From Roseomonas sp. HF4 (GTDB lineage Bacteria; Pseudomonadota; Alphaproteobacteria; Acetobacterales; Acetobacteraceae): 64,000 nt of DNA. A program made the translations under genes and the position numbers. Shown here piece after piece: positions 7,954-13,723 of the stretch. A model generated the notes under the pieces. That model saw nothing but the letters and a program-made list of their open reading frames with translations. It had not been told where the DNA came from and did not search any database. The stretch's first letter is position 1. The number at the start of each line of letters is the position of its first letter. The DNA lies in the NCBI RefSeq assembly GCF_005222755.1, contig NZ_STGD01000009.1, forward strand, positions 1 to 64,000, written 5' to 3'.

Positions 7954-9639
7954 TCATGCGTCGGTCTCGTTCCAGGGTTTTGCCGCGGGTTCCGGCAGCA
8001 GGCGGATCCCCAGGTAGCCGCGGCCGCGGAACAGCGCGCAGTCCTTTGCTCGCCGAAAGCCTTGCCTCTCCAGCATCGCCCCGAGCCATTTCGCATTGTG
8101 CGGCTCGTCGGACCGTTCCTGCACGAAGGTGCGCCAGGAACCGAACAGCTTGCTGCTCATCTCGCCGAAGCCCGCGCCGATCTCGCAGCACTCCTCCACC
8201 CACTGGGTCAGCAGGTCCTGCTCGGCGAAGTACTCGGCCGTGGCATCAAGGACGGCCCTCGGGCGCAGGAGCCCGTCGCGCTGCCACGCGAGGCACCCAT
8301 CGATCATCCAGCGCAGGATGCCGGGCCACTCGCCGCGCAGCTTGTCAGAGAGTTGCGGATCAGGCGAAGCAGGCCGATGAACGAATGGGACGACGTTGAA
8401 TCGGCGTCGGGCAGCATCATCGACGTTCCGCAGCGCGGGTTTGTGGTTGCCGCTGATCGTCAGCTTGAAGTTCGGGACGTAGGTAAAGAAGTCCTGCCGC
8501 ATGAAGCGTGCTGTGACCGGATCACCGCCCGTCAGTGCCTTGATCCGGGCCTCTGCCCAGGCGCGACCCTCCTCGGTCTCGGTGGTCATCACCAATCTGG
8601 CCCCCGCCAGCATCGCTAGGTCGGTCGGGTGCTTTTCCCCCTTCGACGCCGTGAATGTGTCGAGGGCAGCGGTGACGGCATAGGCGCCCATGATTCCCGA
8701 TACCGTGACCAGGAGGACGCCTTTGCCGTTGCCGCCGGGGCCATAGACGAAGAGCAGGGCGTGCTCGCGGGTGATGCCGGTGAGGCAGTAGCCGAACCAG
8801 CGCTGTAGGAACCCGATCAGTGCCGGGTCACCGTTGGTCGCCTGCTCGAGGAAGGCCAACCAGGTCGGGCAGTCGGCGGTCGAGGCCGGCGCGACTGCGG
8901 TGATGCGGGTGATGTAGTCGGTGCCGGCGGCCGCGCGCATCATCCCCGTTCGCAGGTCGATGACGCCACCCGGTGTGCCGAGCAATTGCGGATCCGAATC
9001 CCAGATATCCGCGGTGACGGCGAGGGCTTCGTCGGCTTGGGCGAAGCGTTCGACCGCCGCGGCGAAGGACGCCTTGCCGGTGATGGCCTGCGTCTTGAAC
9101 TCTGCGCCGCGATTGAGGGATGCGACGAGCTGGCGCGCCCAGGTGAAGGCCCTACGGGTCCGATCGCGCACCCATCGGACGTCGTCCCATCGGTACCAGC
9201 AACCTGTGGTGTGGCAGTAGCGGAGGTCGTTGCCGTGCCGTTTGGCGAAGGCGAGCGCGACGCCATGCTCGGTCAGCTCGACCTGGCCCTCTGCGGAAGT
9301 GTCAGACCGGTCAGCCAGGAAGGCGGGGTCGGTGAGGTCGCCGACCGAGAGCCAGCCCTGCTCGATCATCAGCTTGAGGAAGGCGAGGTGGTCGTGCCCG
9401 GCGCAGTGGCCGTGCATGCAGTGCAGCACGAAGCGGCCAGACTCGGACGCCGAGGCGTTCATCGCGATGGTGGCGAAGTCGTCCGCGGCGGACGTGTGCG
9501 CGGCGGCATTCACGCAGCGGAGGTGGTGCTTGCGGTCGACCACCCTGTCGACGAAGCACCCCGGGCGGCGTGCCTGCAGGGCGGTGACGACCTCGAAGCG
9601 CCGGGCCTGGCTGCGCTCCCAGCGGCGGAGGTCGAACAC
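7954..9639 (-). pseudogene. P4-type phage/plasmid primase-helicase, 5'-truncated
   Basis: The 561-residue frame matches the C-terminal part of P4-family DNA primases: a D5-N-like region (about residues 130 to 270, with CPTWLAFLEQATNGDPALIG), then an SF3 helicase with Walker A GPGGNGKGV at about residue 310, TTETEEGRAWAE as the acidic motif and LTISGNHKPAL as motif C. The usual Ser/Thr after the Walker lysine is Gly here. The same frame stays open upstream to 9834 (ILDGTPCDIFALPAVAG) without any start codon, so the N-terminal primase-polymerase domain was lost where the sequence meets the opposite-strand helicase piece. Such proteins start replication of integrative elements and satellites. 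Confidence 0.8.
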
Positions 9640-9770: not shown

Positions 9771-11039
9771 TTGCTGTCTCCGGAGGCGGACCTCCTCCCG
9801 CGCGACGTGCTAGGGCCGCGGTTCGACGATCTCAGCTCAGATATCCGCACCGACTTCCTGAACGACTTCCAGGGGCTCGCCGAGCGGCACAATCCGATCG
9901 TGCGTCGGGTTGTTCGGCGCACCAGGCCGATGCTCGAAGCGCGCGGGCTGCTGAAGCGCATTGGCGTGTTGACGCATCCGAAGCCTGAGGACGGCCTGCC
10001 AACCTCGCTGTTCAGCGGTGAGGGCCTGGAGATGAGCATTGCCTTCAGGGCGGCCTATGAGGCCGCTGAAGCCTTCAGCCGCCTTTACGCGCAGCGCTTT
10101 CCCGGCGCTGGCTTTCTAAAGACCATCCTTCTGCGCCGCATCGGTTCTTCGGCGCGCGCAGGGCTGGAGACAGCACGGCATCTGCTTGGTCGGCTGGACG
10201 GTCCGCTCGTCCCCGAAGACGAGACGAGCGATGAAGGCGTCCCCGACAATGCCCTGCCGCCCGATCCCCAGGAGATCGAATACCTACGCGACGTTGAGCG
10301 GAACCTGGCCGCCGTCGTGGCAGGCAGTGACACGGATCCGAAGGTTCAGGTGGTGCTGCACTATCTGCGTGAGCGGCGCTGGCTTGAGACGAACGGCGCC
10401 ATCATCTTCAGCCAGTACCGGACGACGGCGGAGTGGGTCCTGGAGGCCCTCTGTGCCGCGTTTCCGGACGAGCCGGTGGCGCTCTACGCCGGCGGCGCCG
10501 CGTCCTTCGTGCAGCGCGGTCAGGATCGCCGCACGGCTGCCCGCGAGCAGATCAAGCGACGCATCCAAGATGGGGAGATCAGGCTGGTCTGCGCCACGGA
10601 CGCTGCTTGCGAGGGGCTGAATCTACAGCGCCTCGGTGCGCAGGTGAACATCGACTTGCCGTGGAACCCATCGCGGCTGGAGCAGCGGAAGGGGCGCGTG
10701 CAGCGCATCGGCCAGGCGCGAGACGACATTCACGTGCTGAGCCTGCGCTATGCCGGCACCGTGGAGGATCAGGTCTACGCGGCGTTGTCCCAGCGCTTCG
10801 GCGACATCTTCTCGGTCCTTGGCCAGCTTCCGGATGCCTTCGAGGACGACTGGATCTCGGCCGTGCTCAAGGATCGCACGGCACTGCAGAACTTCTCACA
10901 GCGCGTCGAGACGGCGAAGCCACCGATGGAGCTGCGCTACTCTCTGGACATCGCCGACGATCAGGGCCTCGACTGGGAGTACGCAGAAAAGGTCCTCTCC
11001 TCGCGCGATATCGACGAGTGGATGCGGCAGGGATGGTGA
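9771..11039 (+). pseudogene. SNF2-type helicase, C-terminal half only
   Basis: The 422-residue frame carries the second RecA-like domain of a SNF2/RapA-type ATPase: IIFSQYRTTAEWVLEAL (motif IV), VCATDAACEGLNLQRLGAQV (motif V) and PWNPSRLEQRKGRVQRIGQA (motif VI with arginine fingers). The preceding 200 residues (NPIVRRVVRRTRPMLEARGL, LRRIGSSARAGLETARHLL) resemble the linker of large anti-phage or restriction-linked helicases. The N-terminal ATP-binding domain with Walker A and DExx box is absent; the frame starts at the junction with the primase remnant. It ends 50 bases before the HEPN gene, suggesting a former operon. It cannot be an active ATPase alone. Confidence 0.75.
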
Positions 11040-11088
11040 TTACAGCGATCGCCAGTCAGATTGCTCCTATCCTCGGAGCGTTCCGCCC

Positions 11089-11568
11089 ATGATGCCGCAT
11101 GTCCCCGTGCTCGACATGATGCGTCGGACGATGATCAACTTGGCCTTCGTTGAGCGCCATGCTGCCAAGGACGGGCCCTTTGAGGTCACGCAGCTGATCA
11201 ACTCCTTCCTCGGTGCCCTGGCGCATCCTTGGGAGACCCTGAAGGCCGACCTGCCGACCACATCGCTTGCGGATGCCGCGGCAGCAGGGTGGCCCGTCCC
11301 GGAACAGCAAGGAGGCCGCGGACCTCCGCCGGAGTCACTTGGTGACTTGCTGCGCTTGCTTCGCAACGGGATCGCCCATGGAAACCTTAGCTTTCTTCCC
11401 GATGGCCGCGGCCAGATCCAGGCAGTCCGCATCGAAAACTACGATCGGGGTCGACTGACTTGGCGCGGCGTGATCTCCGTACAGGATATGCGGGCGCTCT
11501 TGCATCGGTTCGTCGTGCTGGTGGAGGAGGTCGACCACGAAGCCCGCCAGCCAAAGCGCACGGCATAG
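11089..11568 (+). CDS. HEPN-type protein (probable RNase)
   Basis: The 159-residue product is mostly helical and carries RNGIAHGN at residues 92 to 99, which fits the Rx4-6H active-site motif of HEPN ribonucleases with Asn after Arg, the commonest form. It is preceded by a helix LGDLLRLLRNG and followed by a C-terminal helix (MRALLHRFVVLVEEV). HEPN proteins are metal-independent RNases used in toxin-antitoxin, abortive infection and CRISPR effectors. I chose the first ATG of MMPHVPVLDM because the frame upstream overlaps the helicase; a GGAG lies about 11 bases before it. No adjacent nucleotidyltransferase antitoxin is seen. It lies downstream of the half helicase and upstream of the 499-residue protein. 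Confidence 0.65.
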   Translation: MMPHVPVLDMMRRTMINLAFVERHAAKDGPFEVTQLINSFLGALAHPWETLKADLPTTSLADAAAAGWPVPEQQGGRGPPPESLGDLLRLLRNGIAHGNLSFLPDGRGQIQAVRIENYDRGRLTWRGVISVQDMRALLHRFVVLVEEVDHEARQPKRTA

Positions 11569-11612
11569 GCTTCGTCTGACTGTTCGCGTCGGGGCCTTGG
11601 GAGGGAGGGAAC

Positions 11613-13112
11613 ATGTCGATTGATGTCAGCGGGGTCGCCCGCATCCGGCATGCGGAAAATGGCACCGTTTACACAGTCGATCCCGACGAGTTGGACTGGG
11701 ACGAGGTTGGCAACGAGGAGCGCGGCATGGGTGCCGAGGTCACCCATGTGGCGGTAGTCGAGCATTCAGAGCTGGGGAACCTGAACTGGACCGTCTGGGA
11801 ATACCCAGTGGGCACTTACAATAATCAGCAGACGGATGTCGGTCGACATACGCTGCTGGAAAATTTCGAGTTCGGGGTGTCGGACCCGGACGTTGCCGCC
11901 TCAGACCGGGAGGCTCGCATCCAGGCGATGGTCGACTGGTTCTTCGAGAATTTTGAAGACCCCGCCCACCGCACACCCTACGAAACTGCCGAGGGCGGCT
12001 ACATCTGGATTTGGGGCGGGCCATATGACGCCGCCGACGAGATCGGCAGCAACTTCTCAGAAGAGGATCAGGAGCTTATCGATGAGGCCGTCGAGCGCGT
12101 GCAGCACGACGGGATATTCGACTGGGCGCCTACCGAGAAGCCCGGCGACTACGAACCTGAACGGGACGACCCCGAGGACGAACCCGGTGACGGGCAGCCT
12201 CCCGTGGAAGACGAGGAAGAACCGGACGGACGCGTCTCTAGCTTTGAGGACATCCTCGCCACCATTCCCCCCGAACCGTCAGGTCCGCTCTTCGACCGAA
12301 CGGATCAGGCACGGATCGATCTGGTCGATTGGGACGGCGCTGCGGCCCCTGACGGCGCTCTGCTATCGGCGCTGCGCGAGCAGACGGCCGAGCTGATCTT
12401 GCAGCTGGAGGGCACCAACGGACATCAGGCCCTTCTTCACGCCCTGATTCGATACTCCGACGCGGTCAACGCCGTGCCGGCGCCGATCCCGCGCCTCTAC
12501 ATCGAGGGTGTCTTCCTTGAGAACGCGGCCGCCCAGGGCGATCGGGAGATCGTGGCCGGCGACCGCCCACCCCTGCCCGGCAGTGTCCCGAGCGGCTTGG
12601 CGTCCCTGCACCATTTGCACGGGACACTAATTATGTCGACGCCGACCGGCTCAGCCATGGTCGAGGCGGCGGAGCGGTATCGTGCGACGCCCAAAGATCA
12701 GGATCGCCTGAACCAGTCGATCAAGGAAGTGGCGCAGGCCATCCGCGACACCCCAGTCGTCTTTGGTCCGGTCGCGCGGCAACTGGCGGAACAGGCAGCC
12801 TCCAACGTCGGCAAGGGCGAGCGGCCCGCGCGGTCGAACCACGCTGCATCCCTGCTCCTTAAGCGCATGCTGGCTGGGGCCGGTAAGGTCGTTAAATTTG
12901 CAGTGGTTGCGGGCCTCCTGACCGTCGTGGGCGACGGCTTGGCGGCGACCGGGGCAGGGGTGCAAGCGATGGCGGCCGTTACGGCCTTAGGCGAAGCCGC
13001 TTGGAGCTTCCTAGTAGGCCACGTCGACGCTCTGCGGACCTTCGCCGCCTTGGTGGGTTCTGACCTTGGTTGGCTGCGCCAGCTAACGGCTTGGCTGCTC
13101 AGTCGGCGATAG
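11613..13112 (+). CDS. Unrecognised 499-residue protein with hydrophobic C-terminus
   Basis: The N-terminal 180 residues hold a tryptophan- and acid-rich domain: a strand-rich part (VTHVAVVEHSELGNLNWTVW) and then WFFENFEDPAHRTPYETAEG followed by GYIWIWGGPYDA, a pattern I believe recurs in other uncharacterised proteins but cannot name. Residues 180 to 215 are an acidic Pro/Asp/Glu linker. The middle (230 to 420) is helical. Residues about 426 to 480 are hydrophobic (KFAVVAGLLTVVGDGLAATG, then AWSFLVGHV), enough for one or two membrane helices. A GGGAGGGA ribosome site precedes the ATG. It follows the HEPN gene by 44 bases on the same strand. A sensor-linker-membrane layout would fit a defence effector, which is inference. 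Confidence 0.6.
   Translation: MSIDVSGVARIRHAENGTVYTVDPDELDWDEVGNEERGMGAEVTHVAVVEHSELGNLNWTVWEYPVGTYNNQQTDVGRHTLLENFEFGVSDPDVAASDREARIQAMVDWFFENFEDPAHRTPYETAEGGYIWIWGGPYDAADEIGSNFSEEDQELIDEAVERVQHDGIFDWAPTEKPGDYEPERDDPEDEPGDGQPPVEDEEEPDGRVSSFEDILATIPPEPSGPLFDRTDQARIDLVDWDGAAAPDGALLSALREQTAELILQLEGTNGHQALLHALIRYSDAVNAVPAPIPRLYIEGVFLENAAAQGDREIVAGDRPPLPGSVPSGLASLHHLHGTLIMSTPTGSAMVEAAERYRATPKDQDRLNQSIKEVAQAIRDTPVVFGPVARQLAEQAASNVGKGERPARSNHAASLLLKRMLAGAGKVVKFAVVAGLLTVVGDGLAATGAGVQAMAAVTALGEAAWSFLVGHVDALRTFAALVGSDLGWLRQLTAWLLSRR

Positions 13113-13723
<611 letters not shown>

Follow-up and report, generated by a model that had tools for sequence, protein, structure and literature searches.

The first 64,000 nucleotides of contig NZ_STGD01000009.1 from Roseomonas sp. 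HF4 (the window) contain three co-directional plus-strand open reading frames (ORFs) between a P4-type primase gene on the minus strand and the gene for tRNA-Ser(cga) (Table 1). They encode the C-terminal half of a helicase, a HEPN protein (P0002) and a modular protein of 499 residues (P0003), whose C-terminal domain (CTD) is the main subject here. The gaps between them are 49 bases (helicase stop at 11039 to HEPN ATG at 11089) and 44 bases (HEPN stop at 11568 to ATG at 11613) long, and GGAG- and GGGAGG-like sequences precede the second and third start codons. None of them is an ORF by chance, as every one either matches a family or has homologues that are strongly conserved.

Table 1. Features of the island end in the window
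Feature	Position	Strand	Evidence
PLD/HKD SNF2-type helicase, pseudogene remnant: C-terminal half, 418 codons	9783..11039	+	NF042964, PLD_Helicase, comparison with L047
HEPN protein (P0002), pEK499_p136 family	11089..11568	+	PF18736, RNxxxH motif
499-residue modular protein (P0003)	11613..13112	+	A (1-90), B (99-176), acidic linker, CTD (215-498)
Module A, ~90 residues, beta-rich	11613..11882	+	strands predicted, low-confidence model
Module B, HEPN/RES-NTD1-like (WFxENFEDP...PYxSxEGGYxYIxGGPYDA)	11907..12140	+	PF18870 below cut-off, phrog_17908
CTD of P0003, ~285 residues, helical, hydrophobic C-terminal helices, candidate membrane effector	12255..13109	+	profile searches, AF2 model
P4-type (D5_N/DUF5906) primase	7954..9639	-	D5_N E 1.5e-28; TIGR01613 280 bits
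Deletion/recombination junction, primase-side DNA against helicase remnant	9783	.	identity to L047, taken in 10-base steps, drops from 80-90% to 10%
tRNA-Ser(cga), where the island probably inserted	13634..13723	-	L047 homology reaches its 3' part (to 13665)

The helicase remnant, the HEPN gene and an intact relative

The first frame is open from 9771 to 11039, but the TTG at 9771 is merely its first start codon; helicase homology begins at 9783. The remnant matches the last 397 positions (499-895 of 895) of NF042964 (E 2.6e-132) and PLD_Helicase of PADLOC (E 2.9e-103). It scores 443 bits, whereas the cut-off for the whole family is 1100, and is thus a fragment, which lacks the PLD/HKD nuclease domain and the first motor lobe. 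The NF042964 helicase is encoded by the fourth and last gene of a DUF499-DUF3780-DUF1156-helicase system. The same four genes are said to have been reported as anti-phage by Gao et al. in 2020. PMC12839542 calls the system Type-2 BR (BREX-related, restriction-modification-like) and treats the HKD-helicase as its effector. At the locus neither DUF499 nor DUF3780 lies upstream of the remnant, where primase DNA follows directly instead, and a search of the window's own genome with the DUF1156 protein of the relative described below, run without a positive control, gave no match at E<=1e-5.

The helicase family is rare in Alphaproteobacteria: in none of 289 genomes, that of the window included, is the family cut-off attained, the sole match being the fragment in the window. 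Among plasmids 68 records match, of which 12 were opened. In all 12 the annotation places DUF1156 upstream of the helicase, as the immediate neighbour in nine and with other genes in between in three (L018, L022, L023); DUF3780 is present in nine, the remaining three stretches beginning just before or inside DUF1156. Two of these loci showed peculiarities of their own. In Sinorhizobium fredii pSF45436e (L017 4367-7164) the annotation divides the helicase into two overlapping pieces, one SNF2-related and one helicase-related, which makes it a further broken or split copy, and on a Desulfosarcina plasmid (L023 7206-8162) a TIR-domain protein, possibly an accessory effector, occupies the slot directly behind the BR helicase.

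An intact relative was found when a collection of species genomes was scanned with a C-terminal alignment and one exact peptide pattern, a procedure that confirmed 4 loci among 40 stretches, which is a lower bound. This locus (L047), from a metagenome-assembled genome (MAG) of the Acetobacteraceae, is 94.4% identical to window positions 9783-11109 and 95.3% identical to positions 11595-13665. Together with its upstream stretch (L052) it reads, in order, DUF2924, serine recombinase, a short ORF, DUF499, DUF3780, DUF1156, a helicase of 915 codons, a P0003 homologue directly behind the helicase, and tRNA-Ser(gga). Its helicase is intact, with a PLDc_2 domain (E 2.3e-11); the remnant is 94.4% identical to this gene in nucleotides, and dN/dS between the two is 0.06.

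The gap between helicase and P0003 homologue in L047 retains ATGATGCCGCATGTACCCGTG, which agrees at 20 of 21 bases with codons 1 to 7 of the HEPN gene in the window and is followed by the P0003 leader. No other HEPN match was found in the L047 genome, which, being a MAG, may be incomplete. Because these seven codons are kept within a 94% alignment, the order helicase-HEPN-P0003 is probably ancestral to both loci, the HEPN gene having been deleted in L047. The serine tRNA gene beside L047 is not the one beside the window's island, and in both loci the homology extends into the 3' part of the tRNA gene. This suggests that the island is mobile and makes use of the 3' ends of tRNA-Ser genes. A search for the second end of the island did not find it. 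On the other side the primase frame continues open upstream to 9831, past the junction at 9783. Further to the left, at 2368-2949 on the minus strand, an ORF resembles by eye a phage endolysin or lysozyme and may be a prophage remnant.

The HEPN gene starts with ATGATG at 11089-11094, not at the start of the longer ORF. P0002 matches PF18736 over nearly its whole length with 44.4 bits (Pfam cut-off 26.6) and carries the RNxxxH motif as RNGIAH at residues 91-96; it is probably an RNase. The family occurs in two of 289 genomes of the class, that of the window included; the other class locus (L081) matches P0002 weakly (E 1.6e-4), and a relative on a viral contig (L012) is 35% identical. The pEK499_p136 HEPN proteins are described from restriction-modification (R-M) and Pgl operons (PMC3710099), and standalone HEPN RNases as back-up effectors of BREX and BR loci (PMC12839542).

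P0003, a protein of exchanged modules

Full-length homologues of P0003 are found in L047 (96% amino acid identity) and in genome G010 (L002/L048; 40%). In the latter, an S24 peptidase gene (UmuD/LexA-like by eye; L002 13-744) ends 4 bases before the P0003 homologue, and a link to the SOS response or to a repressor is possible there. On plasmids P0003 has 44 matches, of which 4 were opened, and module B 27, of which none beyond those was opened.

Between window and L047 the P0003 gene differs by 44 substitutions (25 synonymous, 19 replacement; dN/dS 0.24) without stops, and it is 97% identical, against 91% (ungapped) for the non-coding DNA downstream. It thus looks to be coding and under purifying selection, with the reservation that the numbers of substitutions are small. 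They are distributed unevenly: dN/dS is 0.68 in module A (3 synonymous, 7 replacement) and 0.22 in the CTD (16 synonymous, 10 replacement), and the 86 codons of module B have 2 synonymous and no replacement substitutions. Module A is the fastest-changing part of the protein, as might be the case for a recognition part.

Both N-terminal modules occur elsewhere with other partners. In L003 and L009 a HEPN-like region adjoins module A directly (motif RHDCVHRNG by eye; no Pfam match). Module B, which is 46-53% identical to five other aligned copies, resembles PF18870 over residues 104-166 (20.7 bits with the whole protein and 24.4 with the fragment, both below the curated cut-off of 27.4) and matches phrog_17908, a family without assigned function, over residues 101-173 (E 1.3e-17). 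In L006, a protein whose HEPN domain exceeds its own cut-off, module B is 47% identical and PF18870 scores 20.7 likewise. In 26 viral loci the partner of module B is a C-terminal part of HEPN type with RNxxxH in 12, a GHNxPP-type tail in nine, of PIN_8 type in two and unclassified in three; the PIN_8-type part precedes module B (L071 by Pfam; L072 is the same ORF with the same score). P0003 has no fusion to a HEPN or RES effector, and the CTD stands in that place.

The GHNxPP-type tail is a second non-RNase partner of module B, with a C-terminal helix that is mostly weakly hydrophobic. It is found on phage and prophage contigs, on Phaeobacter plasmids and in genome G206 (L053-L057, L068, L069, L075, L077, L007, L029), and the tails scanned (L007, L004/L029, L053, L075) have no Pfam match. 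On one viral contig (L068 2311-4777) the gene for such an A+B+GHNxPP protein, apparently mobile cargo, lies directly behind a tyrosine-integrase-like ORF (by eye). On the conjugative Phaeobacter plasmid pGal_E78 (L007 1-5125) the A+B+GHNxPP gene comes last, after those for a type ISP R-M enzyme and a HATPase-type protein that has a sub-threshold HSDR_N match. Its position behind an R-M enzyme is, by analogy, a parallel to that of P0003 behind the BR genes.

For the CTD, Pfam gave nothing at E<=1, either with P0003 or with the eight carriers scanned, and PHROG gave nothing at E<=0.01 with P0003 and G639. Its AlphaFold2 (AF2) model (pLDDT 83, pTM 0.83) has long helices at the hydrophobic windows of P0003, the best of which (19 residues, 426-444) has a hydropathy of 1.87. 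Twelve carriers are known to us from these searches. Three have the A+B arrangement (window, L047, G010). In G639 the CTD follows Mrr_N (PF14338, 54.8 bits, cut-off 29.5), this being the one genome with that fusion; in G727, G813, G713 and G872 it follows leucine-rich repeats (LRRs) recognized by Pfam, and in L049 and L050 LRRs recognized by their repeat motif, a simple pattern that occurs 8 times in the former and 10 times in the latter but not in L002. In G906 it follows Ala-rich repeats, and in G915 it lies at a contig edge. For carriers outside the profile the per-genome E values range from 1.4e-19 (G727) to 4.2e-7 (G872). With P0003 as single query, G727, G813, G915, L049 and L050 are found weakly (E 9e-6 to 6e-4) and G713, G906 and G872 are missed, so that this part of the CTD family depends on the profile. 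The CTD was found in four of 200 genomes of the window's order, in four of 199 of the order of G639 and, with an earlier and narrower profile, in two of 398 of the phylum (own or centre genomes counted in each case). The LRR-CTD genes L040-L042, L044, L049 and L050, which stand singly among housekeeping genes of Roseomonas-like and other genomes, have a third-position G+C of 0.55-0.62, their neighbours mostly 0.65-0.85.

The initial annotation of this DNA, made from the sequence alone, had described three genes in series on an island at a tRNA gene: the broken C-terminal half of a helicase of anti-phage type, a HEPN protein with RNGIAH, and a 499-residue protein with an acidic linker and a hydrophobic end. 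All of this was borne out, the linker (residues 176-206) having D or E at 15 of 31 positions. The relation of the genes to defence is likewise upheld, as is the HEPN protein as a probable RNase; the helicase is a core gene product of a described RM-like system. The 499-residue protein had been called unrecognized, but its module B resembles HEPN/RES-NTD1, albeit below the curated cut-off, and matches phrog_17908.

Interpretation of the locus

What is directly seen is the content and order of the genes in the window and in L047, the ORFs themselves and the swapping of domains on both sides of P0003. Bacterial defence proteins often retain their recognition part and swap the part that kills, and the two-way swapping of P0003 fits such a combination of recognition module and effector. 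We propose that a mobile Type-2 BR (DUF499-centred) defence island once occupied a serine tRNA gene here and that this region represents its downstream end. To judge from L047, a deletion with its junction at 9783 would have removed the DUF499, DUF3780 and DUF1156 genes together with the nuclease and motor half of the helicase, leaving two accessory genes intact. The HEPN protein would cut RNA when triggered. P0003 would be sensor and effector in a single protein: modules A and B would recognize either an infection or the breakdown of the main system, upon which the helical CTD would engage the inner membrane via its hydrophobic C-terminal helices and stop growth (abortive infection). P0003 would thus serve the BR system as a membrane-acting back-up effector. 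To this account as a whole, a BR-island remnant with an accessory HEPN protein and P0003 as sensor plus membrane-acting effector, we give an even chance.

A wider proposal is more tentative, and we think it rather unlikely to hold in full. It says that the CTD is an undescribed membrane-acting immunity effector with at least four swapped recognition modules (beta-module plus HEPN/RES-NTD1, Mrr_N, LRR, Ala-rich), that the LRR forms are minimal one-gene LRR immune receptors without a nucleoside triphosphatase (NTPase), and that P0003 is a fifth, back-up gene of BR.

Several observations weigh against the account given first. Only two sister loci, the window and L047, show P0003 linked to BR. Outside this lineage the CTD genes whose flanks were looked at are single and lie outside any evident defence island, beside, for example, rpoD, rarA/mgsA, superoxide dismutase, a succinate-dehydrogenase-type iron-sulphur subunit or a squalene/phytoene synthase, and the sole PADLOC match among 10 chosen neighbours of CTD genes is RecA, a cross-match. 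The defence role of modules A and B is based on association. As to the membrane, the second hydrophobic helix of P0003 peaks at 1.36 only, and the strongest window reaches 1.6 or more in eight of 12 CTD sequences, the others having 1.49, 1.49, 1.13 and 0.99. No Foldseek fold match passes E 0.001, and the best VIA Z of 9.6 is in the range of unrelated helical bundles and concerns residues 40-153, which barely covers the hydrophobic part.

The best surviving alternative, to which we give somewhat less than an even chance, is that helicase, HEPN gene and P0003 were captured singly at a tRNA hotspot without working together, HEPN protein and P0003 being stand-alone defence or selfish genes. The linkage of the three is one lineage-specific association: none of the 12 opened plasmid helicase loci has a HEPN or P0003 homologue within 6 kb, L012 and L081, the further HEPN loci read, match neither the helicase nor P0003, and the CTD loci outside the lineage of window and L047 have no helicase or HEPN match in the DNA examined (3 to 18 kb each). 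Third-position G+C also falls from 0.81 in the helicase to 0.74-0.75 in HEPN gene and P0003. Separate capture is harder to reconcile with the tight tandem spacing and common direction of the genes, with the fact that L047 has kept P0003 right after its intact BR operon, and with the comparable A+B protein that comes last behind the type ISP R-M/ATPase pair of the Phaeobacter plasmid. The single CTD genes beside housekeeping genes favour this alternative too; they speak for self-sufficient single genes and against an enrichment in defence islands.

A second alternative concerns the CTD, which could be a soluble helical scaffold or oligomerization domain, the output of P0003 then passing through partner proteins. 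The uneven hydrophobicity of the homologues agrees with it, as do the helical-bundle look-alikes, which include several sensor domains. We nevertheless regard it as rather doubtful: the model places long helices at the hydrophobic windows of P0003, and modules A and B are elsewhere joined straight to RNase-type domains (HEPN, PIN), which makes their partner slot an effector position.

Least of all, and very improbable in our view, does the three-part unit of the initial annotation survive, with the helicase as sensor, the HEPN protein as RNase and the 499-residue protein as the membrane-acting part: the order helicase-HEPN-P0003 is probably ancestral to window and L047, but the helicase is part of a known RM-like system of four genes and is described there as nuclease effector rather than sensor, L047 has kept the remainder without the HEPN gene, and no further locus with the trio was among those examined. 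Of the co-occurrence looked for in intact relatives, the adjacency of helicase and 499-residue protein was found in L047, not in the plasmid loci. A complete lack of co-occurrence, which the initial annotation had named as refuting its proposal, is therefore not what was seen.

Comparison with known systems

By sequence the helicase remnant is a member of Type-2 BR, and L047 has all four core genes in order; the window differs in that the other three core genes are missing beside the remnant, as is the N-terminal half of the helicase. The nuclease effectors given in the part of PMC12839542 consulted, which catalogues nucleases, do not include a fifth gene like P0003. P0003 suggests that BREX-related systems may recruit non-nuclease back-ups as well. 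P0002, with its score above the cut-off and its RNxxxH motif, is an ordinary member of the pEK499_p136 HEPN proteins (PF18736; Anantharaman et al. 2013, PMC3710099) in an accessory position, and its architecture shows no difference from them. Taken alone, helicase and HEPN protein are ordinary; the unnamed CTD is the domain of interest.

With the HEPN/RES-NTD1 proteins (PF18870; PMC3710099) P0003 shares module B, which in the viral loci has HEPN-type (12/26) or PIN_8-type (2/26) partners, whereas its own partner is a helical, hydrophobic domain without a recognized enzyme. PMC3710099 mentions HEPN/RES-NTD1 fusions to "two other novel domains", so that the A+B-CTD fusion may have been noted there already. 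The CTD is fused in G639 to the N-terminal winged helix-turn-helix of Mrr (type IV restriction) proteins, but it stands where the nuclease would be, and Pfam finds neither nuclease nor NTPase in the G639 protein. With bacterial LRR proteins it shares the LRRs to which it is fused in several genomes; they differ in that Pfam shows no nuclease or NTPase domain in the four LRR-CTD forms scanned. P0003 joins two exchange networks, that of modules A and B with RNase-type domains and that of the CTD with Mrr_N, LRRs or other repeats. Should the CTD prove to be a membrane effector, it would be a new tool of bacterial defence, and the LRR-CTD forms would be, in bacteria, a simple equivalent of immune receptors based on LRRs.

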